Source: Boothiomyces macroporosus (Eukaryota; Chytridiomycota; Chytridiomycetes; Rhizophydiales; Terramycetaceae). From it: a stretch of 64,000 nt of DNA. Location: positions 1-64,000 of the forward strand of contig JADGKB010000004.1 of the NCBI GenBank assembly GCA_027604185.1, in the 5' to 3' direction. The notes beneath the pieces are model-generated. The model searched no databases. It was not told where the DNA came from and worked only from the letters and a program-made list of their open reading frames with translations. Shown in pieces: positions 1,294-64,000 of this stretch. A program made the position numbers and the translations under genes. Each line of letters starts with the position of its first letter. The first letter of the stretch is position 1.

Positions 1294-2384
1294 TTATGCA
1301 TCGACAACAGTGTCTTTAGATAAAGTCTTTTCAATATCAAGTACGAATCTGAACTTGACATCCGATTTCAACATTCTTTCCCAAGCCTTGTTGGCATATG
1401 AAGCAGGAACAAGTTCAATGTCAGCAGTGATGTTCTTTTCACCACAGAAATCAAGCATTTCCTGAGTTTCCTTGATACCGCCAACTAGGGAGCCACCAAT
1501 CTTTAATCTACGAGGGATCAAACTGAAGGTTCTTAATTCCAATGGCTCTGGAACACCACCAACAATGACCAAAGTACCATCAGTCTTGAGCAAAGTCAAG
1601 TAAGCTCCTAAATCGTGTTTTGCAGAGACAGTATCCAAAATGTAATCAAATGATCGGTTGGCAGCTTTGAATGCATTTTCATTGGTAGTAATCAAAACTT
1701 TCTTTGCACCTAATTTGAATGCTTCATCATTCTTTGATGCAGATCTAGAAAGAACAGTGACTTCACAGCCTAACGCAGCAGCGAATTTAACACCCATATG
1801 TCCAAGACCACCAAGACCTAAAACAGCAACCTTATCCCCTGCTTTGACTCCATAATGTCTAATTGGAGACCATAAAGTAATACCAGCACATAGCAATGGT
1901 GCAGCGGCAGCGAGATCCAAGTTTCCAGGGATTTTCAAGACATAATTCTGGTCAACAACAATTCCTTGAGAGTATCCACCTTTGGTATGAGAAGTGCCAT
2001 CAGATTGCGGAGAGCCATAAGCTAATATTAATAACACTTACTTCCAGTTACACCTTTAGCACAGTATTGAATTAGTTCATCCTTGCATTCTGGGCATTCA
2101 CGACAAGAGTTTACAAAGCATCCAACACCAACAGCATCTCCAACTTTGAACTTTGTAACATTTGGACCAACTGCTTGAACATGACCAATAACTTCATGCC
2201 CAGGGACAGATGGCAAAGGACAGTTACCCCATTCAGCTTTACAGTGATGTAAATCAGAATGGCACATCCCACAGTACTTTACTTTGATTTGGACATCGTT
2301 TGCGCCAACTGGTCTTCTTTCGATTTCTAGTAATTCCAAGTGTCCTTTGTGATCTTTAGCTCCGATGGCGAATACCTTTTGCAT
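1294..2384 (-). CDS. Zinc-dependent alcohol dehydrogenase, copy B
   Basis: Complete paralogue of copy A, 356 residues after removal of one 20-nt intron at 2022-2041 (GT..TAG, phase 1 inside a Thr codon). Joining restores the block VTG-TYGSP, which aligns with the uninterrupted TDTYGSP of copy A. It keeps the zinc ligands (CGMCHSDLHH, GHE, CRECPECKD) and GLGGLGHMGVK. Family knowledge indicates an NADP(H)-dependent alcohol/aldehyde oxidoreductase. Read without splicing, the gene appears as two ORFs, which could be misread as a frameshifted pseudogene. The same-orientation tandem arrangement indicates local duplication. Confidence 0.92.
2022..2041 (-). other. 20-nt intron present in ADH copy B, absent from copy A
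   Basis: GTAAGTGTTATTAATATTAG on the minus strand. It has a consensus 5' GTAAGT, a TTAATAT element that could serve as branch site, and a TAG end. Its removal aligns copy B exactly with intronless copy A, so the boundaries are fixed by a paralogue in the same window. Confidence 0.9.
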
Positions 2385-2954
2385 TTTTGAGAGTAAAAAA
2401 TATCTAAATGGTTATTGCGGAAAATTTGGAACCCTAGACCCGTCGGTTAAAAAGCCCAATTTATGCCATGTTTTACTTGTTTAGTTTTTAGTGTTGAGAT
2501 AGTTTATTCAATGCATAATCCTAATGCATGGACCTGTTATTCCTTGTATGCATAATGATCACCTGCCATCTGTGTATAGCCAGTCAGGAATTAAGATCCA
2601 TCCCCTGACAAATAAACAGTGCTTGTCTTTTATGCAGAGACACCCAGAAAATCAAGATAAATCTCGACCACAAATATGGAAAACAAATAGAGCTTTTTGG
2701 TTCACTCAGTCAACCATTAGATTATTACTAGTAATGAACGACTTTACTCTTTAAACAAAACTATTTATAGTTACTGCCTGTTCAGTTGCTAGTCATAGGG
2801 ACTCTAAAAGGAGTCACTCTATAACAATCAAATCTAGTTAAGAAACGACTTGATAGGTAGTATAGAACGAGCATAGAAACAAACTCACTTCCTATCTAGT
2901 AAAAGTTACTACACCATTCGGATAAAATAAAATAAACCCCATATTTAAGATATA
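2385..2954. other. Intergenic region
   Basis: About 570 bases between the 5' end of ADH copy B and the 3' end of NC2-beta. A plus-strand ORF of 76 codons at 2524-2754 has no recognisable motif and no splice-joined extension. I see no gene here. It probably holds the ADH-B promoter. Confidence 0.5.
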
Positions 2955-3500
2955 TTACTGTTCAGTTTTCACTTCATCAACTGGACCCGCACCTGACTGT
3001 AATCTCTCTCTCGCTTTCGCAAACATTTCTTCTTGCACTTTAACCAACTCTTCTTCAGTCAACCCACCAGTATCTTTCCTACTACTCTTCTTTTCACGAT
3101 CTACTTTAACAGACTGCTGATGCTCATTCAACAACTCGTGCATATCCTTGACATAATCATCAAATCCAAGATTCTCATTAATTTAAATTTACTTTTAAAG
3201 CAGAAATAACGTGTTCTCCAGCAATGGTTTTCTTGTTTTCTTTCTCGCAGATATCGTTGGCTATATTAGTAAATAGGACCTTCAGAGGATAGTAAGTGAA
3301 TAAATTCTAAGTTAAGGGTTGATTACCGACACAGCAATCAGTTAGCAGATCTCTGGTTTCTTTTGCGGCGCTCATATCCGATGGTAATAATTCCTGTATT
3401 AGTTTAGCCATGGTTGCTGTGTTATTGAATGTAAACCTTTTGGTAGTGACAAATCTTCGTCATTGTTGGTTCCTACTGGTGCATCGAAATCATCATCCAT
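2955..3500 (-). CDS. NCB2: Negative cofactor 2 beta subunit (Dr1-like histone-fold TBP repressor)
   Basis: Assembled from five exons into 155 residues. Introns are 3417-3436 (20 nt), 3307-3326 (20), 3261-3279 (19) and 3174-3192 (19). The joined protein begins MDDDFDAPVG and then carries the Dr1 histone fold: DLSLPKATMAKLIQELLP, CCVEFIHLLSSEAND, KKTIAGEHVISALK and NLGFDDYV, followed by a basic/acidic tail. Family knowledge: NC2-beta pairs with NC2-alpha and binds TBP on promoters to repress or modulate pol II initiation. Intron 3261-3279 starts GTCCTA and intron 3174-3192 ends GAG, both atypical. Four introns in under 550 bases hide the gene from simple ORF scans. Confidence 0.9.
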
Positions 3501-4397
3501 TTCGAGATTGTGAAAAAAAGAAATCAAGACCAGCTTGCTAGACTCGAGTTGATTAAACTCTTCTAGAAGCGGAATCTATTACTGCGGATAAAATTATCAA
3601 GCCATTTACTGTAAATATACTTGTTTATGCCAATTTCATGTTCAGAGAGTGTATGGTTTAAACTGCCGAATGGATGCATCGATTGGTAGATCTGTTGCCA
3701 ATAAGAAAGCTTGAATATCAAATGATGGACCTTTTCTTGTATTCTAGACGCTCTTCAAACTGCCATTTGTCTGTTCTCGATAAACAGACGTTCAATTGCT
3801 GCACTCTGATATGGAATGAAACTCAACATCTGTGTTCCATTAATACGCCATGCTAGAAAAATGAAATGTGATTCCGATATGAAATATTGATTAATGATTG
3901 TATTCTAAACTGGTACCATCCAGTTGGGTTTTGGGACAATTATATGCACGCTAAAATAGTCAAACTACTGGTAAATGTCTATTCTATTTAAACCGAGTCG
4001 TTTGTCTTTGAAGAATATTTAATGTCTCTTTTGAATCCAACTCGTCAAATCCACTAAATCAATTAAATTACTCCATGAACCGACGAAATTATTCTGCCCA
4101 CTAGAGACACTGAATGATCTCTATGTAGAATATGGTCTCCATCATTAGGAGATTTTAAATAATGATTCGTCATTTTCAGTAAATTGAGACGGAAAAAGAC
4201 CATTTTCCCCCAACCATTAAATGCCATTAAACCTAGCCAAAAAAGGAACGAATAAGCGTCAATAAATTATCAAACAAAGAGACAATAATTTGCCATTATT
4301 ACCCCTTTGATTGTTAAATTTAAAGCCATCACACTTAAATATAAACGTCTGTGCTCAAAAAGGATAAAACTAGACTGAAAACTTTTAAAAAAAGATA
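3501..4397. other. Intergenic region
   Basis: About 900 AT-rich bases between NC2-beta and the small EEWY gene. A 60-codon plus-strand ORF at 3674-3856 shows no recognisable domain. Nothing supportable was found. Confidence 0.5.
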
Positions 4398-4730
4398 ATG
4401 GAACAGCTTGAATATAAAACTATATATCTGGGTAACGGCTGGCAAGTCGAACTTGAAATCCAGAAAGCGATTGGGTATGGTATCAAAACCATGGTGCGCT
4501 CAAAAACCTTTCGAAAGGTTGGATCTTCGGCAAAAGATTTCAAGTCCGAGTATAGGAGTACTATATGTGCTGTAGATAGAGGTTTAAAGTGCACTCAGTC
4601 TTATAGAGTGTACAAGTGTCCAATTGACCCTCATGATGCTTACCGGCCTTCTGAAGAATGGTACAATAGCTACAAGAGGTTGATTGCAAAAAAGAATACC
4701 ATCAGTATTGACAACTTGGTTAATAAATAA
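4398..4730 (+). CDS. Small EEWY-family protein 1 (hypothetical)
   Basis: Single-exon ORF of 110 residues starting at an ATG. I do not recognise a described domain. It is supported as a gene because its C-terminal region recurs in two other small ORFs in the window (6508-6807 and 14129-14470). The shared core is Y-x-x-PEEWYxxYxR (here YRPSEEWYNSYKRL), and there is a short C-terminal signature (here ISIDNLVNK) before the stop. The N-terminal half is not obviously conserved between copies. There is no signal peptide or membrane helix. Function is unknown. Confidence 0.6.
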   Translation: MEQLEYKTIYLGNGWQVELEIQKAIGYGIKTMVRSKTFRKVGSSAKDFKSEYRSTICAVDRGLKCTQSYRVYKCPIDPHDAYRPSEEWYNSYKRLIAKKNTISIDNLVNK

Positions 4731-6507: not shown

Positions 6508-6807
6508 TCAATTCAACAACATTTCAATTTTGATTGAGGTTCGGTATTTGATATTTGATGGTTCTTGTTTGAGTTTAATTGCCTCTTGGAGCAGCCTTTC
6601 ATACACATTGTACCACTCTTCAGGAGGCTTGTATTGACTAAGTACATCTATTGAAACTTGGCGACGGCGGCAGGTACAGATTTGCGGGGTTTGGGTTTGC
6701 TTGTGCATGTACTCTACTTGTTTGTAACCGGAACGACATCTAAGGTTATATGCCTTGATCTGATTAGGGTTTGGGCTCTTTTCGAGTTTGTATTTTGAAG
6801 CAACCAT
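6508..6807 (-). CDS. Small EEWY-family protein 2 (hypothetical)
   Basis: 99 residues from the ATG at 6807 (MVASKYKLEK..). Upstream in-frame codons extend the ORF but look non-coding. It carries the family core YKPPEEWYNVYERL and a C-terminal stretch (SIKIEMLLN) resembling the SIDNLVNK ending of copy 1. It also has a Cys/Arg-rich patch (CTCRRRQ). Opposite strand to copies 1 and 3. Function is unknown. The shared motif with two other local ORFs is the main reason to accept it. Confidence 0.5.
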   Translation of the reverse strand: MVASKYKLEKSPNPNQIKAYNLRCRSGYKQVEYMHKQTQTPQICTCRRRQVSIDVLSQYKPPEEWYNVYERLLQEAIKLKQEPSNIKYRTSIKIEMLLN

Positions 6808-7095: not shown

Positions 7096-10000
7096 ATGGA
7101 AAACCCAATTGCCGAGCAGGAAATTGAAGCCATAAAAGCCATTTATGATTCGGATTTCCGCCAAGAAACAATCACTATAAAGCATCGTAATATTAATTAA
7201 TCAAGCTTGGAAAGCGGCGACAACAAAGATTCTCAATATTTTGAATTTAACGCCTCGGAATTCAAACAGAGAAATATTCATAGAATTGGAATTTGAATAT
7301 CCGGAACAGTATCCTGACCAACCGCCGGTATTTAAAATCCACAAATTAAACGGAATCAGTTCATCCAAAATCAAGGTGATTGAAAAATTGGCCCAGGATT
7401 ATGCAAGGGAAAATGTTGGGCGTGAACTGGTACGTAAACTTAAACAATAGATCTTTGATGTAGCAGATCTAGTAACAGAGTATATTACAAATAATTCAAA
7501 TTCAGCGTCGTTTTTCGAAAATATGAACCAGAAACTGGAGTTGGAAAACAAAATAAAACTGGAGCAGAAAGAGCAGGATCTCAGACAAGAACAAGAGCGG
7601 TTGTTTCAGGAGCGGGAGACAATCCAGAAACAAATACAGCTGGAACTGGAGAGGAAAAAGGCAAAGTTGCACCAGGAGAAACCTAGGAAAAAAGCCATTC
7701 CACAAATATCTTTTACAGAGGAATCATTTCAAAGCAGTACAGATTTCACTCCAACGCTACGCGATGCAAATATACTACCAACAAGAACTGGTGGGTTCCC
7801 TTCAACTCAAACCGCGTGGTTTACAGAGTGCGATAAATCCTATCTGATTGAAACTTACGAACTACACTCTATCTCTGATTTGGATTCAACTATTAATGAA
7901 ATCGAAAAGCAAGTCTTGAAAACGAAGCAGTTGTCTCATCCCAGTATCCCTCCAATTTTTGATTTTGATATATCATCAAAGAGCGGCAGCATGGTCCTAC
8001 GTATATTAACCTTGAATTATAGAAAGATTTCGCTCTTTGATACTGTATTATTGACTACATTTTCTCTTCAGTCTTCTAAAAAAATTATCATTACAATACT
8101 TTCTATTCTCCAGGATTTAGGAGATTACGTGACTCAGTTGGGAGACTTGATGCTGGAAAATATCTATTACGATGATAAAATGAACTTGGTTATATCAGGG
8201 ACTAGTTTGTATCAAGCACTGCGTGAATATGTCCAAAGCCCGAAATCAAACCCAATTTGGGCTCAGCCAAATGTTTACAGAATAGGAAAAGATCAGCCAT
8301 TTAGCTTATGGGGTGCGGGGCTGCTCTTCCTGCAGCTACTTAATGGACCAGATTTGTCTAAATTTACGTCTCCATTAGATTGTGCAAATAACATTCCAAA
8401 CACTAGTCAAGCTCTCGTGTCATTTGTCCAGCAATTAATGGATCATAGCCAAGGGATCAGTAAATCCATAAAACTCTGCAGAGATCATGTTTTCCTTCAC
8501 CAAAGATCCGCATCCCCAGAAAAGCTCCAGATTGCTAAAGTTGATAATATTTCGGCAAGTTCAATGGACATTTCATTTTTGGATACAATGCACACCCCCA
8601 AAAAAGAAAGTAAACTATCAAGATACTACTCGGATTTCCAGGAGCTGGAATTTCTGGGTAGAGGAGGTTTTGGTGCGGTTGTGAAAGCAAAAAATCTAAT
8701 CGATGGTCGCTTTTATGCCATCAAAAAGATCAAACTTAACCCTACAGACAAGGAAAATTCTAAAAGGCTGTTGAGAGAAGTACAAACATTGTCTCGACTT
8801 CAGAGTGAGTATATTGTAAGGTATTACCAAGCGTGGTTTGAAGAGGCAGATGATGATTATGACAGTGACGATTCGAGTGAAGACTATTCCAGCGAAGAGT
8901 CGCATTCCCAATACAGCTATGACGAAACCGATGATTGGCTGTCTTCGGGAATCTCTATTAGTTTACGCAAAAAAGGTTCTCTTCGAATATCAAGAAGCAT
9001 CACTAGCGATTCATACGAATCTTCGGTGGTTTCATCAAAGTATACCCAAATACTGTATATCCAGATGGAATATTGCGAAAAGAAAACGCTGCGTGATCTG
9101 ATTGATATTGGAATTAAAGTCGAAGTAAGTTGGAAGTATTTGCGGCAAATTTTAGAAGGATTGGGCCATTTGCACTTGCAAGGGATTATTCACAGAGATT
9201 TGAAACCAAGTAATGTGTTTTTAGACATGAATGGCAGAATCAAAATTGGTGATTTTGGGCTAGCTACTGCTAAAAGAGAGTTTAACATTGCTCAAAGTAA
9301 GCAGTCGCTCATGGCCTCCAGTGATTTGATTGACGATTTATCACTTACTTCGGATATAGGCACCCCCGTATATATTGCTCCAGAAATATTAGCAAGGACG
9401 GGCAAGTACAATTCCAAAGTGGACATGTATTCTTTAGGAATTGTGTTTTTCGAAATGATTTATCCGTTGACTACAGGAATGCAAAGGGCTATAGTGCTTC
9501 GAGATTTGCGTAATCCTGATATTAAATTTCCTGAAGGTATTGATTAGCTGATTGCCAGATTTTCCATATACAGATCTCAAAGATCAGCATGATATTATCA
9601 AGCAGTTACTTGACCATCTACCCCATGTTCGGCCATCTTGTGCACAACTCCTGCAGTCACCTCTCGTCCCTGCGAACGTGGAAGAAGAGTATATCAATGA
9701 GGATTTGCTTCGAGTTGTTCGCCAAAGGAACCCAACCTACTTTTCCAGATTAGTTGAAGCACTTTTTGGACAATTGGTGGACGTCCACAAGGATTACACT
9801 TATGATTTCAACGGAAATATTAAGATATTTCACCAATTAACCAGCGTCGTAAAAGCTTTGGTTCATCACCACGTTCTCAAAGTCTTTACGAGACACGGTG
9901 CTGGCCAAATTTCCACACCTATTATAATCCCAAAATCGAAAAAAGCAATGGAAATATATATATCCAAGCGACCTGCAGAGTTCCTGGATCAAAATGGAGA

Positions 10001-11598
10001 TGTGGTTCAGCTGTACCATGATTTGACTGTACCGTTTGCACGATCGTTGTGTCAGTCCACAGAAGAGGAAATCACTTTTCCCCTAAAAAGATATACTATC
10101 GAGCGAGTATATCGAAAGAATATTGCAGGAGGTTTTTTGAGATTAATTTAGGCCAACCTCGTTCAATAGAAGAGTGTGATTTTGATATAGTCTTCCCAAG
10201 TTCAGATAAATCAATGATTCCAGAGGCAGAAGTAATCAAAATCGTATTTGAAATCCTGGAATTTGGGAAAACTTTGAGGTTGATTGATATGAATGAGTAT
10301 CAAGTTCGTGTAAACCATACCCAAAATTTGTCCAAGTTGATCTCATCATACGGAATTTCAGACTCTCTTTGTGATACCGTGATCGATATTTTGTCGCAGT
10401 TGCATAAACCTCTTAATATGAAACAGGTTGCTGGTCTACTTTCACAAATCGGACTATCCCAAAAGCTGATAGAAAAATTGATTTCTTTGGATGTTGTTAT
10501 TCCTATTACCTCAAAAACAAAGGCCTGTGACTTTGCTACCTATTTTGAAAAGGGTTTCGAATTCACTAATGAATTACTCTCTCTCACTGCAAATCTGGAG
10601 AACATGGGATTGAAAAACATGATCAGCCTTGAACCTTTACTGGTGTGTAATCCAACAGTGTTCCACAATTCCTTTATATTCCAGGTTTGCAGAAAGGTAA
10701 AGTCCAAATACGACGTTATCGCTATTGGTGGCCGTTATGAATCCCTTCTAGATACATTTAGAGGACCGTTTGAGCGAAGGATGACCGACCTGAATTGTAT
10801 AGGGTTGAATTTCTGTAAGTAATCTTTAAACATAGCTTTATCAAAGTTTATTTTGAATATCACAAACTACCAAACAGCAGCAATGCAAGAAGATAAACCA
10901 AATCTCTGTAAAAAGGCTGATGTAGTTATATTAACACTTGGCGATAATCCTGGATTGATTGGACACAAGCTCTTGATCGCAAATGACTTGTGGAGTGCTG
11001 GAATATCTGCAGATCTTTCCCAGCAGCACATCCAATCTACCCAGGATGAAATTTTTACAGCATGGAAGAATGGTAACCAATATTGACGATAGATTATACT
11101 TTTGCCATAATCATTAAACCAAAAGGATCAGATTCCCATGTAATCAAGCTTCGAAACCTGTCTTCAAAGCAGGAAACAGAGGTGCCTCGATCCTCATTAA
11201 TATACCATTTGAAAAGCACGCAAGATGTTAAAAGATCAGAGAGTGAAAGCGACTTGTTCCATAACAAACATTCGGTAACAATCATACCTTTTACACGCAA
11301 AAAGGATGTGCAAAAATACAAGACGAACTCCTCAGTAATTTCAGAGAAATCCATTTCAACCACCAGCAACTTGTACCAAAACTCCCCTATTATTGCAGTG
11401 GAACTGCAGTGTAGCGATATAATATCATTAAGCAATGTTTGGTTTGAGGATGAAGAGGTCTTCAAAAAAGCATGCAAGAGTGCTAATAGAGATTATTGCT
11501 TACAAATCAAACGCCAGGTGGTTAGACTTGCCAAAGAATCGGAGCTACTATGGATATACTCTAATGTCGATAGTAAATCATTCCCAATATTAGTTTAA
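7096..11598 (+). CDS. GCN2: GCN2-type eIF2-alpha kinase
   Basis: Joined from seven exons into 1459 residues. Introns: 7187-7205 (19 nt, AAG end), 7430-7450 (21), 9537-9558 (22), 10132-10151 (20, GTTTTT start), 10815-10835 (21) and 11073-11092 (20). Order: RWD domain (about 1-115, FEYPEQYPDQPP), charged coiled coil (about 130-185), degenerate pseudokinase (about 215-430), kinase (GRGGFGAVVKA near 505, an acidic insert, HRDLKPSNVF near 685, DFGLA, GTPVYIAPE), HisRS-like region (about 870-1230) and a C-terminal anticodon-binding-like domain. Family role: senses uncharged tRNA and phosphorylates eIF2-alpha during amino-acid starvation. The joined length is exactly divisible by three. Its stop lies 22 bases from that of the convergent PSD gene. 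Confidence 0.96.
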
Positions 11599-11620: not shown

Positions 11621-12853
11621 TTATATTAAGCCGATTGGTTCGCCCAATTTAATCTTTTGACCTTCTTCTATATGAAATTTAAATGATTTTGGTGCTTCAA
11701 ATACTAATACAACGGTACTTCCGAGTTTAAATCCACCCATTTCTTCTCCTCTCTTGTATGTTAATTTACTTCCGTTATTATTAACAAGCTCTTCAATATG
11801 CTCTCCCAATTTACGATCTAATTCAGCGTGCGGGACGTTTGTAAGAAGATTCTGTTGTTAGCAAATTATTACTGGAGCAAAGTTGAGAATAATCTTTCCA
11901 ACATTGGTAGCAGCTACTGGAACCATTGAAAACAGACCATGGGACCATGTTCCCAAAAGAGAAACCCTTTCATTGAGTGAGAACAAGTGACGCAACTGTT
12001 TTACCATTGATGGAGATACTGAAAACATTTCTCCCGCAAAATGCCTCATCAATTCAATATGCCATTCGGTAGGTGAGTGGAATCTGTGATAATCCCCAGG
12101 AGCAAGATAGATTACTGTAAAGAATAGAGAGTTGCCCTTCTTTGGTATATAGGTGGCACCTTCAGCATTCATGTTCTTTGGGTTCTTTCCCAAAAGCGCG
12201 TTCAATGAATAAGTAATTCCTTTGACTTGTTCAATTTCATCATGAACAATCTCCCCAAAGTGCAATACTCGTCCATCAGCCGGGCTAACAAGAGAGGCTT
12301 CCTTCTTGCTTGCGATTGTTCTAACGTTGGGTTTAATGGTTCTATAAAAGAATTGCCCAAGGTTTTCAAACTTTGTCAAATCAGTTTCTTCCATTTCATC
12401 CAAGTTACATCCACAAACAAAGGAGTAGGTTCTGTAAACAGGGGCACGCAGCCAAACGGGCAAAACAATATCGTTAATGTAACCCCAGCATTGAGAGAGA
12501 TATCTTAGCGGAAGAGAGGCATACAAGCGAAGATAAAGCGGTCCTTCTACTTTGATTCCGTTGTGGTCTTCTTCTCTTTGGCTAATTTTGTAAAAGTGGT
12601 TAACAGCAAGCCAAGCAATTCCTAAAGAAAGGGGGATTGGATACCAAGTTGTTTTAGTGCTATTCCAAGCATTCTTGGCTTGTTGAAATACTAATTAAGT
12701 TCATGAAATACCTGTGGTTTCTCCCTTGGAAGAAATGAACGACCGACGCAGAGAGAGTGGAGTGCGAACATGATGGAACGATTGGACTGGCGAAGGTTCA
12801 ATCCTAGCTATCCTGTGTAAAAATCTAAATGTAATTCGCTTCGAGAGAGTCAT
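11621..12853 (-). CDS. PSD1: Phosphatidylserine decarboxylase, mitochondrial type
   Basis: 396 residues from three exons. Introns are 12691-12711 and 11852-11872, both 21 nt with an in-frame stop. The ATG at 12853 opens a basic, Arg/Ser-rich leader ([18 protein letters not shown]) typical of mitochondrial import, then a hydrophobic segment ([15 protein letters not shown]). The catalytic core shows [20 protein letters not shown] and, near the C terminus, the autoprocessing motif LGST within [14 protein letters not shown]. Family knowledge: the proenzyme self-cleaves at Gly-Ser to give a pyruvoyl cofactor and converts phosphatidylserine to phosphatidylethanolamine at the inner membrane. Tail-to-tail with GCN2. 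Confidence 0.95.
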
Positions 12854-14128: not shown

Positions 14129-14470
14129 ATGAACACTACCAATAAAATAAAAAATGATCCAAAAGTTACCCTGATAGAAGGACATTTGGCACTTGTAGAG
14201 TCGTCGTACAACGAAGCAATTCCACCACACAATCAAAGACATAAAATATTAATAATTCCTTTTAATCCTACAGACATGCATCAAGGCTACAAGTACCCTG
14301 AAGAATGGTATGACTCTTATGACAAACGAAAAATGAATGACAATTATGACAAGGAGAATAAGAAAATTACAGTAAATAATCAAGCAGGCGAAGCCTGTCA
14401 GAATAGCAAGAGTCGAGAAAAGAGAAAGAGGCAAAATAGTGTTAATGTTGATAATTTAATTAATAAATGA
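14129..14470 (+). CDS. Small EEWY-family protein 3 (hypothetical)
   Basis: 113 residues, single exon. It contains the family core YKYPEEWYDSYDKR preceded by KILIIPFNP, a charged linker (KSREKRKRQ) and the C-terminal signature VNVDNLINK, closely matching ISIDNLVNK of copy 1. The conserved ending right before the stop in two copies argues for a real coding sequence. No described domain is recognised. The basic tail could be a nuclear-localisation-like patch, but this is only inference. Confidence 0.6.
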   Translation: MNTTNKIKNDPKVTLIEGHLALVESSYNEAIPPHNQRHKILIIPFNPTDMHQGYKYPEEWYDSYDKRKMNDNYDKENKKITVNNQAGEACQNSKSREKRKRQNSVNVDNLINK

Positions 14471-16519: not shown

Positions 16520-16675
16520 TTTTGTTGACGTCAATCTGAAAGTTGGAAGATTGTCAACGGAAACTTTTATTAGCAAAGCCGACATTTTCACAAAATAGAT
16601 ACTCCTCCGACCATAACACGGTCAATCAAAGATCATGTAAAATTAAAAGTAGCTTTGTGGGAAAAAGATGTCTCT

Positions 16676-17595: not shown

Positions 17596-17634
17596 TCTGT
17601 AAATTACAAACTTTTCTCTATTGTTCAGAAACAA

Positions 17635-47173: not shown

Positions 47174-47247
47174 AGTTTTCAAAGAATTTTCAACACCCAA
47201 ATTCAAGTCAGCCACACGTTCGAGAACCTTCAAATATACAATCAATT

Positions 47248-49834: not shown

Positions 49835-50165
49835 TCTATTGTATTCTATTGAGTTGAAATTTTTTTCAAGGCTCTTGTGTTTTTCGGGATGAAAGAGAAT
49901 CGCTTCAAGAAAAGATCGTTCATTTGCTGGCTGCATACCACTTGCGAATCGCTTTTTCAAGCAGATGATTTTGAATCTACTGTGGACCGAGCTCCCCAAA
50001 GGATTTTGAATTTTAAAGGCTCAAAACGAGTCTACGATAGCAGCAATGAATTAGAACTTGATCGCATGTCAATTACTGAGCGTTCTGATTCACTTTATCT
50101 TTGTAACCCAAGTGGTATTCGGAGAGGTCTTTGAGGCACTTGAAAAATTTTCACCAAACAACGAA
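49835..50165. other. Divergent intergenic region
   Basis: 331 bases between protease 4 and the Hsp70-like gene, likely a shared promoter. An 85-codon plus-strand ORF at 49877-50134 is largely antisense to the protease 4 upstream region and has no recognisable motif. Confidence 0.4.
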
Positions 50166-52081: not shown

Positions 52082-53685
52082 TTAAGCATCCACTTCTCCA
52101 AGGTTGAGTCTTGCTTTACCCAACTCGGCTTGAAGTAGTTCATCATACTTTTCATATTCCGCCTAAATTAGTCCAGTCAAACCTTTTCAGCTTCAAACTC
52201 TTTTTGCCTTCGCAATTTTTCCTGCACTTTACGCTGTTCAAACTCTTCAATTTGATCAGCCAGTATTTTAGAGTACTTTTGTTTAATTGCAAATGATTTT
52301 GCGTTTTCTTCAGCTTCAATTAGTTTGCCTTTTTCAATCTCTTTTTCAAGTTCGATTTTGTGCAGACGATTAAGCTCTTGCTCGTGCTTATTACGCTCTA
52401 TGGCTGCTTGTAACTGCTCTTGGCGCACTTTAATCACATCCTGCATCAATTTATCTCTAGCAGCTTGCTCTTTTCTCCATTTCTCTGTTCTTACTTTCCA
52501 AATCTAGACTTAGAATTCATTTTACTCTATCTTGCTCTTCATTATAATATTGCTCCAGTTCCTTTTCTCGTTTAGCTTCTTCTGCTTTCTGTCTAGTCAA
52601 GTGTTCTCGGTAAAGCTGCATTTCTTTTTGCAGTTCCAATTTACGTCTAGAGTGGGACTCTTTCTCTGCCTTTTCCATTCTTGAAATTTCATCCAGTATT
52701 CTTAAATCATTATCCAATGCTTTCTTTACATCTTGTTGACGCTGAAGAATCTTTGCCTTATTAAATTCGTCCAGATCTGCTCTAATTGCACGCTTCTCTT
52801 GTTCTTTGCGCATTAGTATTCGTTCATCTTCCATCTGTCTCATTTGCATATCCTGCCGCTAGCTGTTAGTGCCTCCGTACCATTAATCGCGCTTCCTCTG
52901 CCTTTAGTTCTTCTTGAAGTCTGGCTTGTTTTTTTAATGACTCCAATTGTTCTTGGAGAATGACTAAAGTCTGGACATTTCTTTCATGTGTAATTTGATG
53001 ATCACGACGTTCTCTCTTTTCTTTTTCTAATCGCCCTTGCTCCCACAGTTTATCGTAATACTCTGCTTCCTTCTTTTCAAGCGCTCTCCTTTCCTCCTTT
53101 TCAATCAACTGCAATGCGCGATCTTTTGCAACTTGTTTGACGAGAATCTTGCTTTCCAGTTGACGCAACTCATCGCATCCTTGTCTTTACGTTATCCTTG
53201 AATTACCTCCATTGCTGATCCAACTTTTGCTTCACGACAGCCTTTCGCTCGTTTTCTCTTGCTAATCGTAATTCGGTCATCCTCTCCTTCATTGCTTTAA
53301 TACGCGATTCAGTGGTTTCTTCCTTTTTCAGTAGCGCTTGTCTGTAATATATTTCGTCTTGCGCTAGTAATTGTCGTAATCTATGTTGAGATACAGTTAC
53401 TTTTCGCGCCTTTGTTCTAGCTTATTGTTTTCAGTCCCTCTTAGAGCATTTAGTTTTTGAAGAAACCGATTCCTGTTTATTTTAAATGTAGTAGACTGTT
53501 CGAATTGAGACTAGGGTTATCAGATCCGTACTTTGCGATCCATATTCTCGTAGTACTGTCTGGTTTCTATTACTTGCTGTCGCAAATCCTCATCCTTTCG
53601 TCTATTTGTAATTAGAAAGTCAGATCTTGCCCCCGATGGTTTCTGTACTGTCAATTGCGGATGGTACCTTGAAAAGAGATGTCAT
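52082..53685 (-). CDS. CFAP53: Cilia- and flagella-associated protein 53
   Basis: 483 residues, eight exons. Introns: 53643-53667 (25, the longest micro-intron here), 53511-53531 (21), 53381-53400 (20), 53185-53206 (22, AAAG end), 52859-52880 (22), 52504-52525 (22) and 52163-52182 (20). Almost entirely coiled-coil, with the order of CFAP53/CCDC11: LRQLLAQDEIYYRQ, KQKLDQQWRQGCDELR, SKLWEE-like YDKLWEQGRLEKEKRE, EEARLM and NEEQDR. Family role: microtubule inner protein of axonemal doublets. It implies a flagellated life stage. The first exon and its 25-nt intron are least certain. Convergent with the Hsp70-like gene, 38 bases apart. Confidence 0.85.
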
Positions 53686-53785: not shown

Positions 53786-55158
53786 CTACAACTCGTCAGC
53801 GTATGGGAGACGTAGAAGATTTCCTGAAGCGACAACACTTGGTTTAGATGCAATGGCGGCTTTGACAATCTGAATTAATCAACGATTACCTTTTGAACGT
53901 CTGCAGCAGTGACGGATTTGATATTGGCGACATCTAATAGCTGAGTGGTTTTTCCAGAAGTAGCTTCCTTTCCAAGAGCTTCAACTAAGCCTTGGCGGTT
54001 TAATTCTGTTTCTGCGGTAACAACTGCGGCTTTCTTTGCAGCTTCAAACACATCGGCTGGGATTGCGGAAGCAAATCCTTTGAGAGCTGCAATAGACTTT
54101 TGGACAGCAGCTTTAATTTCACCAGTCTTTCCTTCAGCAATGAATCCAACCAAACCAGTGTCAACATAAGAGTTGCTGAATCCTGAAACCACGGTTGATT
54201 GCTCGCTTTGGCTTCCCCATTTGACATTTTGTACTTGGTCTAATAATGCACGTAATACCAATGAAGCGCTATAGTCTTCGGAGGTATAAGCTACACCAGG
54301 ATATGCAACAGCATATAATGCTAATGAGTTTGGACCGGCTTCTAAGCGAGCTTCTCCTCCAAAGTATTTTGCTTTTGGGGTTTCGATTGCTTCTTTAGCA
54401 AATGAAACCTTTGATAATGCATTTTCAACTACTGCTTGCAAATCTGTGTGTGCAACTCCTGTAGCTACGACAGCGATGCGATCTGGAGTTAAATATTTTG
54501 AATGGGCTTTAACTTCTGCACGGGTAAATCCGGATAGTGCTTCTTTTGAAGCAAAAACACTGTTCCCTAAGCCAGTTCTGAATGCGACTTGGTGCAATTT
54601 TTCAAAAGTTTGAACATGACGGCAAGCTAATGCTGAAGCGGATTGGCTGGCAGTGCCATTGAGAGCATCCAAGAATTCATAAACTTCCAATGATGGGTTG
54701 AATACTTGTGAAATTAATAAAGGAACTGCATCGACACTGTAATTAATCACTAATCTTACACATCGTCACGTAAAAATTCTGAACCCACACTGATGTGTTC
54801 TCTTGAAACAGTGGTATAAAGGCTGTTTCCTCTTAATTGGGCTTCTAATACATTGCGAACTGCACTATCTCCTGGGGTGTCCTATGATTATTTGCAATTG
54901 TACCCTAACCAACAAGCGCTTGTACAAATGAGCTACACCCGGTGCGTCAGGAGATTCGTATCTAGAACCTGCCTTTAAATAGACAGCGACGGATGAAACT
55001 GGTCCTAAATGATCGTAGGTGGCCAATGTAACACCTGAAGGAGTCTTTGAAACTGTTTTAACTGCCTTTGGTGCAGCAGCAACTTGTTCTCCCTTGCGGT
55101 TGTAACTAACAGATGATTGTGCTCTGATTTGATTTAAAATAGTACGATTTCGAAGCAT
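53786..55158 (-). CDS. QCR2: Cytochrome bc1 complex core protein 2
   Basis: 435 residues, four exons. Introns 54882-54903 (22), 54737-54759 (23) and 53870-53889 (20). Mitochondrial leader MLRNRTILNQIRAQSS. An M16-protease-like fold, but the zinc motif HXXEH is replaced (GVAHLYKRLL), as expected of core 2 rather than the processing peptidase. Conserved FNPSLEVYEFLDAL, and the C-terminus LLRLPYADEL is restored by the last intron. Structural subunit of respiratory complex III. Confidence 0.93.
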
Positions 55159-55269
55159 GCTGTGAAAAAATTCCAGATGAAAAAAATGATTTTCGTTCTC
55201 CAGCCATAATTCACTTTAGGGTGGCTGAAGTGGAATAAAAGCACCGTCGACAGTGGAATGAATAATTTA

Positions 55270-57015
55270 TTACATTCTGAATACTCCAAACTTGGTTTCT
55301 TCTGGTTTTGAATTCAGGGCGGCGCTCAAAGCAAGTCCCAGAACTTTACGAGTATCTTGAGGTTCAATGATACCATCATCCCACAAGCGAGCACTAGCGT
55401 AGTATGGATGCCCTTCATTATCATACTGCTTTTGAATAGGCTCTTTGAATTTCGCTTCGGCTTCTGGGCTCCAATTTTCACCCCGCTTTGCCTTGGCATC
55501 TCTAGTGATCTGAGCAAGAACTCCAGCAGCTTGCTCTCCGCCCATCACTGAAATGCGAGAGTTTGGCCATGACCATAGGAATCTAGGGCCATAAGCTCTT
55601 CCACACATTCCATAGTTTCCTGCACCAAATGAGGCTCCACAAAGAACCTACGCGTTAGTCAAAATATACAGTGAATTTAGGAACTTTGGCTGAAGCAACT
55701 GCGTTCACCATCTTTGCTCCGTTCTTTGCAATACCACCAGCTTCTGCAGATTTACCAACCATGAACCCAGTAATGTTTTGCAAAAAGACTAGAGGAATTC
55801 CTCTCTGGGAACAAAGTTCAACAAAATGAGCACCTTTCAAAGCACATTCAGAGAATAGAATTCCGTTATTTGCTACAATACCAACAGGATACCCGTGAAT
55901 TCTAGCGAACCCTAAACTTAGCGTAAATTACCAGTAACTAGTGTCTGACCGTAGTTTTCCTTGAATTCATGGAATCTACTTTCGTCGACAATTCTAGCAA
56001 TTACTTGTTTAATATCAATTGGTTTTCGCAAATTATCTCCAACGATTCCACCAATTTCTGATTCAGGGTACAGCGGTGGTTTAGAAACAGTCAAATTCAT
56101 TTTAGTTTCCTTCTTGTAATTGAAATTTGCTACAATTTGGCGACCGATTGCAAGTGCGTGTTCATCGGATTCTGCCAGATGATCAGTTACCCCAGAAACT
56201 TTGCAATGTAAATCTCCTCCTCCCAACTCTTCAGCAGTAACTTCTTCGCCAGTAGCGGCTTTAACCAACTAATATTAATAAAAATTACAGGTGGTCCTGC
56301 CAAGAAAATTGTTCCTTGGTTCTTTACAATAACACTTTCATCAGACATGGCTGGGACATAGGCACCTCCAGCAGTACACGATCCCAATACAATAGCAACC
56401 TGTGGGATCCCAGCACCAGAGAGTGTAGCCTGGTTGTAAAATATTCTTCCGAAATGCTCCTTATCTGGGAATACGTCTGCTTGACGAGGCAGGTTTGCAC
56501 CACCGGAATCAACAAGGTAAATGCAAGGAAGATGGTTTTCCCTAGCGATTTCTTGTGCTCTTAAATGCTTTTTAACTGTGATTGGATAGTAAGAGCCACC
56601 TTTGACTGTTGGATCGTTGGCAACGATCACACATTCCACACCACTAACTCTACCAATACCGGTAATGATACCGCCGGCTGGCACATCATCATCGTATAGT
56701 TCATATCCAGCAAACTGAGATAATTCTAAAAATGGAGTTCCAGGATCAATCAATTGATCAATTCTATCCCTTGGCAAGAGCTTTTTACGCTCCAAGTGAC
56801 GCTGTCTCGCTTTTTCGCCTCCTCCTAATTTGATTTGCTCTACTTTTGCTCTCAAGTCTGCAACCAACCTGGCTTGAGCTGTTGCGTTTTCCTATGTTAC
56901 CATCTAGTACCTTGAATTGGGCAGAGTCAGTGTCGATAGTGTTCTTGATTACTGGCCCGACAGTGTGGAACCTCCTTCTTAATGAATGGGCTGCGATAGA
57001 CTTGAGTCTCAACAT
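55270..57015 (-). CDS. MCCB: Methylcrotonoyl-CoA carboxylase beta subunit
   Basis: 554 residues, five exons. Introns 56892-56910 (19), 56269-56288 (20), 55912-55931 (20) and 55648-55669 (22). Mitochondrial leader [20 protein letters not shown]. Carboxyltransferase motifs: [63 protein letters not shown] and [10 protein letters not shown]. Transfers carboxyl from biotin to 3-methylcrotonyl-CoA in leucine degradation. The biotin-carrying alpha subunit is not in this window. Propionyl-CoA carboxylase beta is the main alternative, but the motif wording favours MCC. Confidence 0.93.
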
Positions 57016-58404: not shown

Positions 58405-59202
58405 ATGAATGTCATTACGGAAGATAGAATAATACAGTCATACAGTCTATTAGAGAAACTGATCAATGCGCATACAGAGTGTCAAGAAACAAAAGAAATC
58501 CTCAATGAAATGCGATGGTCACCCTCCTTGACAGATTATCCAATACCAAGGCCAGCAGTCCTGTCAAAATCAGCCCCAACAATACGGAAAATCACATCAA
58601 TACGTAAGCAATAATAATATTAGAGAAATACATAGAGAGATTATCATACAACTTTTTGGGAGAACCATTTTTTACCATAAAAAAGACCTTTTCAATAAAC
58701 AGGTTATGCAAACTATCACAAGAAATGATCCAATGTGGTCTTCCAATCAAATGCTTAGAAGCCGTGGCATTGGGGATATACCTCACTATGAATTTTGACA
58801 TTGATCGAGTCCGTAAATCCATTTTTAATTAAGCGATTTCATTCAAATCCGAATGCGATGGGAACGAGTACAGACACATAGTGCTGGGAGTCAAGTTCGG
58901 AGACAAATGGGGTGCCATTGGACTATCTCGCAGATTAGGTAGCTATTGCTAACAAGATTTGATGGACAAGCCAGTCACTTACAAGTCGCTGTCCGATTTG
59001 ATTCATGACTACAAGCGATCCTATGAAAATAGTAAAAATTGATTAATAAGACTGTCACACCTTGGTAAAGATCAAGATTGGAGCTCCGGTGCCCCATAAC
59101 ATTAGCAGCAACGAACTCCCTATTTGGAAAGTAACTCTCTTTAAAATAGAAATTCTCAATCCGGACAGATCAAGGTTGGTCGATCGTAGGAAAGGAAATT
59201 GA
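58405..59202 (+). CDS. VASH: Vasohibin-type tubulin tyrosine carboxypeptidase
   Basis: 239 residues, five exons. Introns 58604-58623 (20), 58813-58833 (21, AAG end), 58939-58956 (18, AAG end) and 59032-59050 (19, AAG end). The joined protein matches vasohibins closely: IQKYIERLSYNFLGEPFF, LPIKCLEAVALGIYLT (catalytic Cys), VPISFK, YRHIVLGVKFGD (catalytic His), AIGLSRR (catalytic Ser), DLMDKP and CHTLVKIKIG. Family role: removes the C-terminal Tyr of alpha-tubulin. All three catalytic residues are intact. Unspliced, only fragments are visible. Confidence 0.93.
58939..58956 (+). other. 18-nt intron in vasohibin, shortest in the window
   Basis: GTAGCTATTGCTAACAAG: GT start, CTAAC element six bases from the end, AAG end. 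Its position is fixed on both sides by conserved vasohibin residues (LSRR before, DLMDKP after). Retained, it would introduce an in-frame TAA. Confidence 0.85.
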
Positions 59203-59251: not shown

Positions 59252-59854
59252 ATGAATCTGTTTGACGAGTCTAACCATCTCCTGGACGACACTTGGTCTG
59301 AATCTGTTATTCATCCCCTATTGGAAATGTCTGCTCCAAAGATGCTGTTGGAAGAGCTTGGACCATCAGAGAGTACTTTTGAAGATCTGGACTCGAAAGA
59401 TATTGCAGATTTATTAAATCAAGTCCAAGAGATTTGCAATGATGATCAGGAAGAAGTAGAGGATTTACTGAATGCTGTCAATGCGGCTATAGATAAGGAG
59501 CCTGCGATCAAACTACCGGCAACAAAGAAACCACCTGAAGCGAAAAAGTCTGAAAAGCTGGATACGGTTTACAGTATTCCAAAAATAGAGTACGAGTCAA
59601 TGTTTCTGGAAGAGGATACGATGATGGAGGTATTCCAAATCTCATTTTAGAGCCAAGTTATTGGAATAATGGGAAAGTACATGCCTAAAACCGATATTGA
59701 AAAAGCGTACAGAATTAGACAGGAGAAATCGCAAGATCAAACTCGAATAGAATCTCCATCTACAATCGACTATTTACACCGCCATCGACTGTATGAAGAA
59801 AACACCAAAATATTAGACATTGGAAAGATTCAGAAATTGCCAAAATTAAGATGA
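59252..59854 (+). CDS. Acidic hypothetical protein
   Basis: 193 residues, two exons, intron 59630-59650 (21 nt, ending in an in-frame TAG). Start at the ATG at 59252 (MNLFDESNHLLDD). The N-terminal half is acidic with predicted helices (DIADLLNQVQEICNDD), followed by a Lys/Pro linker and a basic C-terminal half (IEKAYRIRQEKSQDQ). The joined length is in frame and both exons have protein-like composition. No known family is recognised. The stop is 12 bases from that of the convergent downstream gene. Confidence 0.7.
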
Positions 59855-59866
59855 TATACATTATAT

Positions 59867-60387
59867 TTATGTAGAATAATAAATCACATAGTCATTTTGA
59901 ATGATCCAGCCCCAATCTTTTGTGCGGGAGCAGCTCGTTGGTGGATATTGCTCCACTAGGTTAAATAAGCTTACCTTGAATATCACCCGCATAAAACCTC
60001 CATTTCAATTCGTGATCAAACAGGTCACTGACATATGTGTAATCTGGTCTAAAATAAGCTTTGATTCCGGGATGATCTTCTGGCCATTGCTTGAATTTGA
60101 ATAACCTACATTAGGACAGCTTACCATTCTGTAGTACATAGCTCTTCCTTTGTTATTGCAGTACGTTTAGAGTCTTTTTCGGCGGCAACAAATGAAGCTT
60201 TCCACTTTGGAAAATAGGCAATCTGGTCCTTTGGATCCGAGTCCAGTAATGCTTTCTTTAGCTCTGATTTCTCTAGCAATCCTTTGATTGGGATTAGTCT
60301 TTTCTTTAGTACTGATTTGATTTCCTTTACTGATAGTGTATCTATAATGCGGGAATAGTTACAGCGGGGATGCAATTCCAATGCCAT
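59867..60387 (-). CDS. Hypothetical protein with SAP-like N-terminal helix pair
   Basis: 160 residues, three exons, introns 60106-60124 and 59956-59974 (both 19 nt, GTAAGC..TAG). The N-terminal part (SVKEIKSVLKKRLIPI then LLEKSELKKALL) resembles a SAP-type helix-extended-loop-helix DNA/RNA-binding motif. The C-terminal part is aromatic-rich (FKQWPEDHPGIKAYF; CSRTKDWGWIIQND). Splicing gives an exact frame and a composition unlike random DNA. The overall family is not recognised. Confidence 0.7.
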
Positions 60388-60452: not shown

Positions 60453-60810
60453 ATGAATTATCATTGGCAACGTTATTCCACAGCTGGGTTACTAATAGTT
60501 ACCTGGCATGCCTCTGAGCAATTCAACAGCTCCTTCATATCCAAATACGAGAAAATGCTAATCAGGATTTCTCTAGGCAACACTTTGATGGTTGTTTCTG
60601 TCATTAAGGCCGCAAAAATCAAAGTGGAAAAATATCGGGTGGACCCATCTCTTTATGCGTGTATGAATGCTTCAACGCATTTCTATAATGCAAATCGCAG
60701 GTTTGATTGTTGCAAGTGCCAATCAAATTTTAGTGTCCTTTGTTAGAGGTCCAATCGATTGTAGTGATTTCATCAAAATCATCTGCCTGAAACGTCACTT
60801 TTTGATTTAA
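60453..60810 (+). CDS. Possible cyclin-fold-like small protein
   Basis: 105 residues if a 40-nt GT-AG intron at 60661-60700 is removed, giving ..SLYACLIVASANQILVSF, reminiscent of the A-x-L-I-V-A-S box of Pho80-type cyclins. This intron is longer than all others in the window and the similarity is weak. Alternatively the stretch is 5' leader of the HMG-box gene. Divergent from the SAP-like gene, with ATGs 66 bases apart. Confidence 0.3.
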
Positions 60811-62105: not shown

Positions 62106-62255
62106 ACTTATGATTATAAAAAGTGTATATCTTTTGAAATAAAAATACAAGTAAAATCGATGTTATTTTGGGATTTGAATAGGAATTTCACATTGTGTTC
62201 TTTCCACGACAAATCCACATTCGCGATTTTTGATAAAGAAAAATCAATTTAGATA

Positions 62256-64000
62256 ATGGCAGAAGTTAGCGAAACCCCAGCGTACGAAAAAAAGTCATCT
62301 TCAGCAGCGCCTTCCGGGTCACCTAATGCTACTCCACGAACAACATCTACAGGACAGAAAATAGGTCCGTATGTGTTGGGAAAGACATTGGGTGTAGGAA
62401 GCACAGGTACCGCATGTTTAAACGTCAGGAAGAGTAAAGCTGGCAGTGCATATGGAAACTAATCAAAAAGTAGCAATAAAAATTATCAGCAAAGACAATC
62501 CAGAAACACCAGGAAAAAAGAATCCAGCAGTAGAAAAGAAATTGGATAGAGAAATTACAATTATGAAGCTAATTCAGCAGTACGAGAAGAATTAATCAAT
62601 AGTCCGAACGTGTTGCAAATTTACGATGTGTACGAAACCAGCCGGGAGTTGTAACTATTCGTTTAAAGATAGATATCTTGTATTAGAGCATGTAGAAGGA
62701 GGCGAATTATTCGATTATCTCGTAAAGAAAGGCCGCTTATCAGAATCTGAAGCAGTCCAGTTTTTCCAGCAGATAATTTTTGGAGTAGAGTATTGCCATC
62801 GGCATCTAATATGGTAATTAATATTTGATTCAGCCACCGTGATTTAAAACCAGAAGTACTTTTAACTTGATGTAGAACTTGCTTTTAGATAAAGAGTACA
62901 ATGTTAAAGTAGCCGATTTCGGGATGGCGAACATGATTGTTCAAAGTAAGATGCTGGAAACCAGCTGTGGGTATGCTTCGTGTAACATAGATCCCCCCAT
63001 TATGCCAGTCCAGAAATCATCAGGGGAGAGAAATATGATGGGAGGACTTCAGACGTTTGGAGTTGCGGGATTATATTATTTGCACTAGTGACTGGAAATC
63101 TTCCGTTTGACGATTCTAATATCCGCCGATTGCTGACAAAGGTTAAAACCGGTGTATACCATATTCCCGAGCATGTTTCTCCAGCTGCGAGAGATTTGAT
63201 CAAAAAAATGCTGACAGTAGAGCCAGCAAGCCGAATAACTGTAATTTTTTCTAACGATAGTTGCAAGAAGTAATGAAGCACGAATTCTTTCTCTCCCGGC
63301 CACCAAAGAACAACCAAACAGTGATGCCATCCATGTTGGAGTCTGATAATGTAATTCGTGCTTACTTTAGTTCAGTCAAGGATATCCAAAGAATTTTAAA
63401 TTTGAAACAGATATTTTGGACTCCTTAACATTGTTGGGGTGGGACAACAGAGACAATTTGATAGAATGTTTGCATGCTGAAGGAACAAATGCAGAAAAAG
63501 TGTTTTACAATCTATTGCACAGAAGAAAATGGGAAATGCTTGAAAACTATAACAGCGAGAAACAGGATAAAGTGGATCCAGATGGTAGGTTTTATTAATT
63601 TCAGGAAACACTCCAGTTAGACGAGCCGATTCCTTCTGCAGTGATAATCTGGATCCTGCAGCCAAGCGTGAACCTACTGGAAACAGAAGGGCGTTTAGTG
63701 AAGGTGGTCCCGCACGTGCACCTACGATGACAATGAAGAGTCCGTTGGCAGCAGAAACCAAATTGTAATTTGTGATTCATAATAGGTCAACCGATTCAGA
63801 TGAAGCAATTTCAAAATCTGGGTCACAATCCCCTCAGAAAACACCTACTATCAAAAAAGCAGTGGGCAGCAAGCGCAAGGGACCTTTGGCAATTAATACC
63901 ATAGCGAATGGTGAAGCTACAGAGCCATCACCAGTGTCTGCTTCATTGAAAAGCCCAGCGATTGCAAGCGCTTTTGCTGCAATTGGCTTGGGAACGCCTA
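62256..64000 (+). CDS. BRSK/Gin4-type Ser/Thr kinase (3' end outside window)
   Basis: Ten introns in 1.75 kb: 62407-62428 (22), 62580-62602 (23), 62651-62672 (22), 62814-62833 (20), 62856-62875 (20), 62971-62990 (20), 63241-63260 (20), 63351-63370 (20), 63585-63604 (20) and 63765-63785 (21). The joined kinase reads [73 protein letters not shown] and [19 protein letters not shown]-like segment ([20 protein letters not shown]) follows, typical of SAD/BRSK and yeast Gin4/Hsl1/Kcc4, then a Ser/Pro-rich tail open to base 64000. Family role: cell polarity and morphogenesis checkpoint. Confidence 0.92.

Follow-up and report, generated by a model that had tools for sequence, protein, structure and literature searches.

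The nuclear genome of the chytrid Boothiomyces macroporosus (Chytridiomycota, Rhizophydiales, Terramycetaceae), which we take to be a free-living saprotroph, contains GT-AG introns of mostly 18-24 nucleotides (nt). To judge from the signals that they carry, these are probably U2-type spliceosomal introns that have been compacted genome-wide to near-minimal size and are recognised as a rigid unit. An initial annotation of the window analysed here (the 64,000 nt at positions 1-64000 of contig C4, in a 15.2-Mb genome assembly of 216 contigs) had proposed tiny GT-AG introns in a nuclear fungal genome, and this was confirmed by a length peak relative to decoys, by a branch motif and by protein-level checks.

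A purpose-written two-strand gene finder, using codon usage, start and stop codons and introns in any phase, was applied to the window and to 20 ten-kilobase stretches from contigs C1-C21 except C4 (264 kb in total). The first pass had a flat length prior of 10-300 nt and required only the end dinucleotides, with no splice-site or branch model. With GT..AG, 387 introns were obtained, of which 154 were 18-25 nt long, with a peak at 19 nt (30), 20 nt (62), 21 nt (43) and 22 nt (13). In the same pass, 14 decoy dinucleotide pairs gave 13-36 introns each at 18-25 nt; the GC..AG pair gave 19/352 and the AT..AC pair 20/389, the latter without a short-intron peak. GT..AG was the only one of 15 pairs to yield a short peak, and in the remaining length bins its counts did not exceed the range of the decoys. 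A chance origin of the peak is excluded.

For the final set, donor and acceptor weights were trained over six bases at each end. Intron length was limited to 60 nt because many longer introns in the first trained runs looked like joins of adjacent genes; the resulting 375 introns therefore exclude any above 60 nt. Of these, 367 were 18-24 nt long, with lengths of 18 (2), 19 (80), 20 (152), 21 (84), 22 (38), 23 (10), 24 (1) and longer (8). Introns made up 2.9% and coding sequence 78% of the 264 kb, and 107/138 complete predicted genes were spliced, at 2.2 introns per gene; extrapolation by length gives roughly 20,000 introns in the genome. The narrow length mode is genome-wide and not local to the window. 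A wider comparison of lengths, suggested by the initial annotation, found the 18-24-nt mode in all 20 stretches on other contigs (5 to 27 such introns in each), and 110/112 distinct introns in other small loci were also 18-24 nt. Among 35 predicted introns longer than 24 nt, nine combined a GTA donor with a branch motif located at -6 to -8, relative to a motif background of 4%, and a few longer introns probably exist in the genome.

In the window, 81 introns of up to 60 nt were predicted, with lengths of 18 (1), 19 (13), 20 (27), 21 (23), 22 (11), 23 (4), 32 (1) and 60 (1). Three of them, at 43866-43886, 47228-47259 and 55214-55273, were judged to be joins of neighbouring genes and were rejected, which leaves 78 where the initial annotation had counted 77. 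The first and last coordinates given there correspond to the predicted introns 2022-2041 and 63765-63785, and a 25-nt intron in its count was not found among the window predictions. It had placed the introns in 31 genes or more; here 23 of 37 predicted genes were spliced, a figure that is lower partly since the gene finder fused some neighbours. Spliced coding lengths divisible by three, which it had also reported, were seen in 35/35 complete window models, a property that the method forces, as it does the GT and AG ends.

A YTRAY branch motif with its A at -6 to -8 was present in 69.1% of the 152 first-pass introns of 18-23 nt, compared with shares of 1.8% among 3,443 GT..AG decoys in coding sequence and 4.0% among 1,600 in intergenic sequence. 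The first-pass share is the independent figure, because the use of donor and acceptor weights partly builds the motif share into the final set. In that set one clear branch site was found in 299/367 introns, the commonest being TTAAT, CTAAT, TTAAC and CTAAC. The branch A lay at position 14 (128), 15 (125), 16 (39) or elsewhere (7) from the 5' end, and thus at 14-16 in 292/299. Its distance to the intron end, the A counted, was 5 (15), 6 (135), 7 (123), 8 (21) or 9 (5), and thus 6-8 in 279/299. The typical intron has a 5' splice site that is mostly GTA and weak at +5, YTRAY with the A at 14-16, and in most cases an AG 2-4 nt beyond the motif. Composition at the 5' end was G 51% at -1, A 90% at +3, A 58% at +4 and G just 21% at +5, with a mean match to the U1 complement of 5.4/9 donor positions; the 3' end was TAG in 245/367, and the middle of the intron was mildly U-rich (T 40.5%). 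Information content was 6.3 bits for the donor, 6.6 for the branch and 4.6 for the acceptor, about 17.5 together. With weights taken from the 20 other stretches, a composite score gave an area under the curve of 0.987 for 79 window introns set against 898 decoys in coding sequence. The value is optimistic, because the window introns were chosen by a finder whose donor and acceptor weights already came from all 264 kb. At a sensitivity of 90%, 14 decoys passed in 42.8 kb.

The GT-AG ends and a branch site complementary to the GUAGUA box of U2 point to U2-type introns, and the near-fixed branch A leaves no room after it for a polypyrimidine tract. Branch motifs such as TTAAC partly resemble the U12 consensus, which would be expected if these were minor (U12-type) introns. 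That origin is highly improbable, since AT..AC lacked a short-intron peak (20/389 at 18-25 nt), the donors are variable (GTAATT, GTAAGT and GTAACT are commonest) whereas the U12 donor is GTATCC, and standard U1, U2 and U6 are present.

The window introns are as follows; every entry except the corrected one at 36906-36926 is a gene-finder prediction, with its location in a Pfam match added where there is one.

2022-2041, minus, 20 nt, ADH copy 2, branch TTAAT, exactly absent from tandem copy 1
3174-3192, minus, 19 nt, NC2-beta-like gene, predicted
3261-3279, minus, 19 nt, inside CBFD_NFYB_HMF match
3307-3326, minus, 20 nt, inside CBFD_NFYB_HMF match
3417-3436, minus, 20 nt, inside CBFD_NFYB_HMF match
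3563-3582, minus, 20 nt, predicted
7187-7205, plus, 19 nt, GCN2-like, inside RWD
7430-7450, plus, 21 nt, GCN2-like, inside RWD
9537-9558, plus, 22 nt, GCN2-like, inside Pkinase
10132-10151, plus, 20 nt, GCN2-like, inside HisRS-like match
10815-10835, plus, 21 nt, GCN2-like, predicted
11073-11092, plus, 20 nt, GCN2-like, inside HGTP_anticodon2
11573-11593, plus, 21 nt, directly ahead of stop, weaker, predicted
11852-11872, minus, 21 nt, PS decarboxylase, inside domain
12691-12711, minus, 21 nt, PS decarboxylase, predicted
14987-15005, minus, 19 nt, predicted
15254-15274, minus, 21 nt, predicted
15986-16006, minus, 21 nt, tandem paralogue array, predicted
16303-16321, minus, 19 nt, weak, predicted
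16937-16956, minus, 20 nt, tandem paralogue array, predicted
26036-26054, minus, 19 nt, tandem paralogue array, predicted
27094-27113, minus, 20 nt, tandem paralogue array, predicted
30298-30318, minus, 21 nt, tandem paralogue array, predicted
32377-32396, minus, 20 nt, tandem paralogue array, predicted
32447-32465, minus, 19 nt, tandem paralogue array, predicted
36602-36622, minus, 21 nt, Vps1, deposited protein
36906-36926, minus, 21 nt, Vps1, corrected from 36923-36943, homologues keep VSDII upstream
37184-37203, minus, 20 nt, Vps1, deposited protein
37417-37436, minus, 20 nt, Vps1, deposited protein
37566-37585, minus, 20 nt, Vps1, deposited protein
38263-38282, minus, 20 nt, Vps1, deposited protein
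38362-38382, minus, 21 nt, Vps1, deposited protein
40563-40582, minus, 20 nt, predicted
41681-41701, minus, 21 nt, pseudouridine synthase gene, predicted
41911-41931, minus, 21 nt, pseudouridine synthase gene, predicted
44237-44258, minus, 22 nt, eIF3c, inside PCI
45029-45050, minus, 22 nt, eIF3c, inside eIF-3c_N
45567-45589, minus, 23 nt, eIF3c, inside eIF-3c_N
46036-46055, minus, 20 nt, eIF3c, inside eIF-3c_N
46787-46807, minus, 21 nt, predicted
48142-48161, minus, 20 nt, aspartyl protease gene, restores DTGSSD
50202-50222, plus, 21 nt, Hsp70-like, predicted
50365-50387, plus, 23 nt, Hsp70-like, predicted
50632-50653, plus, 22 nt, inside HSP70 match
51056-51076, plus, 21 nt, inside HSP70 match
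51219-51239, plus, 21 nt, Hsp70-like, inside MreB match
52163-52182, minus, 20 nt, CFAP53-like, inside TPH
52504-52525, minus, 22 nt, inside TPH
52859-52880, minus, 22 nt, inside TPH
53185-53206, minus, 22 nt, at TPH edge, not counted inside
53381-53400, minus, 20 nt, predicted
53511-53531, minus, 21 nt, predicted
53870-53889, minus, 20 nt, QCR2-like part, predicted
54737-54759, minus, 23 nt, QCR2-like part, predicted
54882-54903, minus, 22 nt, QCR2-like part, predicted
55648-55669, minus, 22 nt, MCC-beta-like, inside Carboxyl_trans
55912-55931, minus, 20 nt, inside Carboxyl_trans
56269-56288, minus, 20 nt, inside Carboxyl_trans
56892-56910, minus, 19 nt, MCC-beta-like, predicted
58813-58833, plus, 21 nt, inside vasohibin
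58939-58956, plus, 18 nt, inside vasohibin
59032-59050, plus, 19 nt, inside vasohibin
59131-59149, plus, 19 nt, inside vasohibin
59630-59650, plus, 21 nt, predicted
59956-59974, minus, 19 nt, F-box gene, predicted
60106-60124, minus, 19 nt, F-box gene, predicted
60342-60362, minus, 21 nt, F-box gene, predicted
60484-60502, minus, 19 nt, inside F-box
62407-62428, plus, 22 nt, BRSK-type kinase, inside Pkinase
62580-62602, plus, 23 nt, inside Pkinase
62651-62672, plus, 22 nt, inside Pkinase
62814-62833, plus, 20 nt, inside Pkinase
62856-62875, plus, 20 nt, inside Pkinase
62971-62990, plus, 20 nt, inside Pkinase
63241-63260, plus, 20 nt, inside Pkinase
63351-63370, plus, 20 nt, BRSK-type kinase, predicted
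63585-63604, plus, 20 nt, BRSK-type kinase, predicted
63765-63785, plus, 21 nt, BRSK-type kinase, predicted

At the protein level, 34/53 junctions in ten spliced window proteins fell within Pfam matches; the 53 include two judged to be artefacts, neither of which lies within a match. The Pfam families agree with GCN2, PS decarboxylase, eIF3c, Hsp70, MCC-beta (carboxyl transferase), BRSK and vasohibin, and names such as QCR2, NC2-beta and CFAP53 are presumptive, being those of the initial annotation or our own. Removal of the intron at 48142-48161 restores the DTGSSD motif, as had been claimed. The window holds four aspartyl protease genes (34886-36094, 38662-39873, 46544-48383 and 48674-49936), one with tiny introns and three without.

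The spliced Vps1 product, from which seven tiny introns had been removed, was 100% identical to the deposited B. macroporosus protein over 680 amino acids. Homologues of Vps1 retain the sequence VSDII in a part that both our own model and the deposited one treat as an intron (36923-36943); placing the intron at 36906-36926 (GTAGAATTACACTGACAATAG) brings VSDII back and corrects the error. As the deposited Vps1 has the same misplaced junction, a match to a deposited model cannot count as independent confirmation of each junction.

Between the two tandem ADH genes the difference is a segment of exactly 20 nt, GTAAGTGTTATTAATATTAG, which copy 1 lacks. In principle, the short segments might be some other kind of skipped DNA, such as eliminated sequences, translational bypass or assembly errors. 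Such explanations predict neither a peak unique to GT..AG among 15 dinucleotide pairs, nor a U2-complementary branch motif at a fixed distance, nor the U1, U2 and U6 genes that are present, nor paralogues that differ by a precise 20-nt segment, and are regarded as very improbable.

How recognition by U1, U2 and SF1-U2AF fits into so short an intron, as the initial annotation had asked, is the right question, and the answer obtained here is partial. Among the components that it had named, the small nuclear RNAs kept standard pairing and SF1 and U2AF65 were retained, whereas RRM1 of U2AF65 was altered. The genome contains one copy of U6, one of U1 (68.8 bits, just below the cut-off of 69.5) and two of U2. 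The pairing sequences of U1, U2 and U6 are standard, with AUACUUACCUG, GUGUAGUA and ACAGAGA intact, and the branch-pairing stretch of U2, GUGUAGUAUC, was read in both copies, L003 and L004. The 3' halves of these two U2 genes differ, and the branch-recognition region is common to both. Searches of the genome for U5 and for RED (PF07808) gave no match, and as their controls were likewise silent, absence is not claimed. No U2AF35 was recognised among the predicted proteins of all 17 zf-CCCH loci, some of which are unnamed, and intron-split zinc fingers can escape such a search.

SF1 retains its ULM, KH-QUA2 domain and zinc knuckles. U2AF65 retains an RS region, the ULM tryptophan, two RRMs and the UHM; its unspliced genome match scored 230.7 bits against a family cut-off of 310.3, and the spliced deposited protein scored 341.4. 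The deposited U2AF65 model (P0121; L025:433-2551) is fused to an upstream ribosomal protein L24-like gene. In RRM1 the RNP1 octamer reads KEHCHVEF, in which the aromatics at positions 3 and 5 are both lost. Among 119 other aligned homologues (the best 120 of 1,337 matches, minus the deposited Boothiomyces protein), position 3 is F/Y in 118/119 and position 5 is F/Y in 118/119. The sole exception at both positions is P0124, a metagenome protein 55% identical with the sequence KNSAIVEF, perhaps from another tiny-intron chytrid. RRM2 retains KGFAFCEY. The residue at position 5 of human U2AF65 RRM2, F304, stacks on uracil (PMC7408900, PMC4786784), so the change in RRM1 would affect the equivalent place. 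In the predicted structure of U2AF65, the RRM1 fold was of high confidence and both histidines were placed on strand beta-3; the whole-chain predicted local distance difference test score was 65.7, and much of the chain is disordered. The N-terminus of Isy1 looks diverged in sequence comparison: 18/24 homologues chosen from the best 120 listed start with [MQ]AR[NS]xEKA, three truncated models keep MLYRF, and Globomyces, Kappamyces and Gorgonomyces are diverged, as is Boothiomyces.

If the introns are recognised as one rigid unit of 5' splice site, branch and AG, the branch and AG would be read together because they lie so close. The lariat would have a loop of about 14-16 nt and a tail that is 5-7 nt in most introns. 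If pairing is usual, the U6-paired and U2-paired stretches would lie just 2-4 nt apart during the U1-U6 hand-over and U2 pairing. The smallest distance from 5' splice site to branch site that a human B complex can accommodate has been estimated at 52 nt (PMC6692369); as this distance is about 14-16 nt in Boothiomyces, either the geometry of assembly or the hand-over between early complexes must be different. With no room for a polypyrimidine tract past the branch, U2AF65 may not need full RRM1 binding, which may explain the loss of the two RNP1 aromatics, and it would act mainly via ULM/UHM contacts. In human cells, SPF45 takes the place of U2AF on short introns whose tracts are truncated (PMC8363638). 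Space for the tight lariat may come from the apparently diverged Isy1 N-terminus, an idea put forward for Stentor, in which this N-terminus is not conserved and would thereby avoid a clash with the lariat (PMC9505925); a changed Cwc25 plug is also reported for Stentor. Taken alone, a role for U2AF65 and Isy1 in the explanation is plausible, with our judgement leaning slightly against it. Held just as tentatively is a scenario in which the entire major spliceosome of the Boothiomyces lineage moved to a single rigid ruler (about 14-16 nt from 5' splice site to branch, 6-8 nt from branch to end), the polypyrimidine step was abandoned, RRM1 of U2AF65 was disabled at the surface that binds RNA and the Isy1 N-terminus was remodelled; such a change would be convergent with Stentor, but its host would be a fungus that can be cultured and has introns in the thousands.

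Conventional recognition by a full SF1-U2AF65-U2AF35 complex, with U2AF65 on uridines upstream of the branch and the RRM1 change a product of neutral drift, would fit the conserved KH and ULM of SF1, the conserved ULM and UHM of U2AF65 and the mildly U-rich intron middle (T 40.5%). It is nevertheless unlikely, given that both aromatics are replaced in an otherwise near-invariant octamer, that just 2-4 nt separate the branch motif from the AG in most introns, and that U2AF35 was not seen among the 17 zf-CCCH matches, in a search able to miss it.

Several observations weigh against compact U2-type introns read as a rigid unit, or against parts of that account. All of the intron evidence consists of DNA and protein sequence, and the deposited models may themselves derive from ab initio prediction of a similar kind. 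Reading-frame methods are blind to introns of 3n length without stops; 10/76 detected 3n introns were stop-free, and most such introns would escape frame-based finding. None or more than one branch motif was present in 68/367 introns, and in stretch L015 YTRAY was found in only 33%, its genes being ordinary-looking on inspection, with variant branch sites. Of the nine long candidates, two or more appear to be joins of neighbouring genes. The U2AF65 of Globomyces keeps the RRM1 aromatics, so their loss does not demonstrably track intron size; the intact ULM tryptophan argues that the U2AF heterodimer still forms; and the first exon of Isy1 is uncertain.

Ultra-short introns are known from heterotrichs (15-16 nt), mikrocytids (16-17 nt) and chlorarachniophyte nucleomorphs (18-21 nt) (PMC10245619). 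The initial annotation had aptly pointed to nucleomorphs and Stentor (PMC10245619, PMC9505925), beside which mikrocytids and Paramecium also belong. Stentor coeruleus (15-16 nt; PMC9505925) resembles Boothiomyces in its tiny GT-AG introns, fixed branch A position, standard U1, U2 and U6 pairing and presumed free-living host, and perhaps in a diverged Isy1 N-terminus. It differs in having shorter introns, the A at 10/11, no strong branch consensus and introns in 18% of genes, whereas Boothiomyces has a strong branch consensus and introns in 107/138 complete predicted genes. Chlorarachniophyte nucleomorphs (18-21 nt; PMC10245619) share nearly the same length range, but are reduced endosymbiont nuclei, in contrast to the 15.2-Mb assembly of a pollen-isolated fungus. 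The introns of mikrocytids (16-17 nt; PMC10245619) likewise have a narrow length range and conserved sequence, but they belong to parasites in which 17-19 spliceosomal proteins were detected, and M. mackini has 224 of them in 179 genes, compared with the roughly 20,000 extrapolated for Boothiomyces. Paramecium (median 24-25 nt; PMC12862383) also carries short U2-type introns in high numbers, spread over a large proportion of its genes, but is a ciliate with a longer and broader length range. Microsporidia, which are fungal relatives (PMC10245619), have short introns with conserved motifs within the wider fungal lineage, but differ in their few introns, reduced spliceosome and intracellular parasitism.

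No published description of the Boothiomyces introns was found in the searchable literature, most subscription-journal papers being outside reach. The initial annotation had considered them undescribed in a fungus; this stands for the papers searched and is limited to them, because deposited B. macroporosus proteins already imply the introns. The kind of intron is already known, and its instance in Boothiomyces appears to be undescribed in the literature searched. A survey of more than 3,000 genomes dropped introns below 30 nt (PMC10639083), and surveys that discard these miss genomes like that of Boothiomyces. Comparably short cases in the literature seen are ciliates, relict nuclei and reduced parasites. 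The B. macroporosus strains listed in PMC11210171 came from soil or water, on pine pollen or pollen, and a culture-collection fungus with canonical signals makes the question testable beside well-studied fungal splicing.

Other features of the window and genome were also recorded. A tandem array at 15656-33753 comprises nine related gene models that by eye resemble multi-pass membrane proteins and share a [YL]D[NS].Q motif; 6/9 have one or two tiny introns. Two adjacent intronless tandem ankyrin-repeat genes lie at 22326-24576, with Pfam ankyrin matches for the first only. Three small intronless gene models (4398-4730, 6508-6807 and 14129-14470) share an EEWY(N/D) motif and perhaps form a lineage-specific family. 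Directly downstream of eIF3c, a radical SAM gene (42763-43869) has a weak RlmN N-terminal match below the Pfam cut-off and perhaps encodes an rRNA methyltransferase of bacterial type within this fungal nuclear genome. Elsewhere, L049 and L050 (C36:45043 and C36:87227) carry the same gene set about 42 kb apart, including a Cwc2/RBM22-like gene, and a Cir_N match (C49 and C100) and one RRM match (C20 twice) are also doubled; the doubled gene sets reflect either recent duplication or an assembly artefact.

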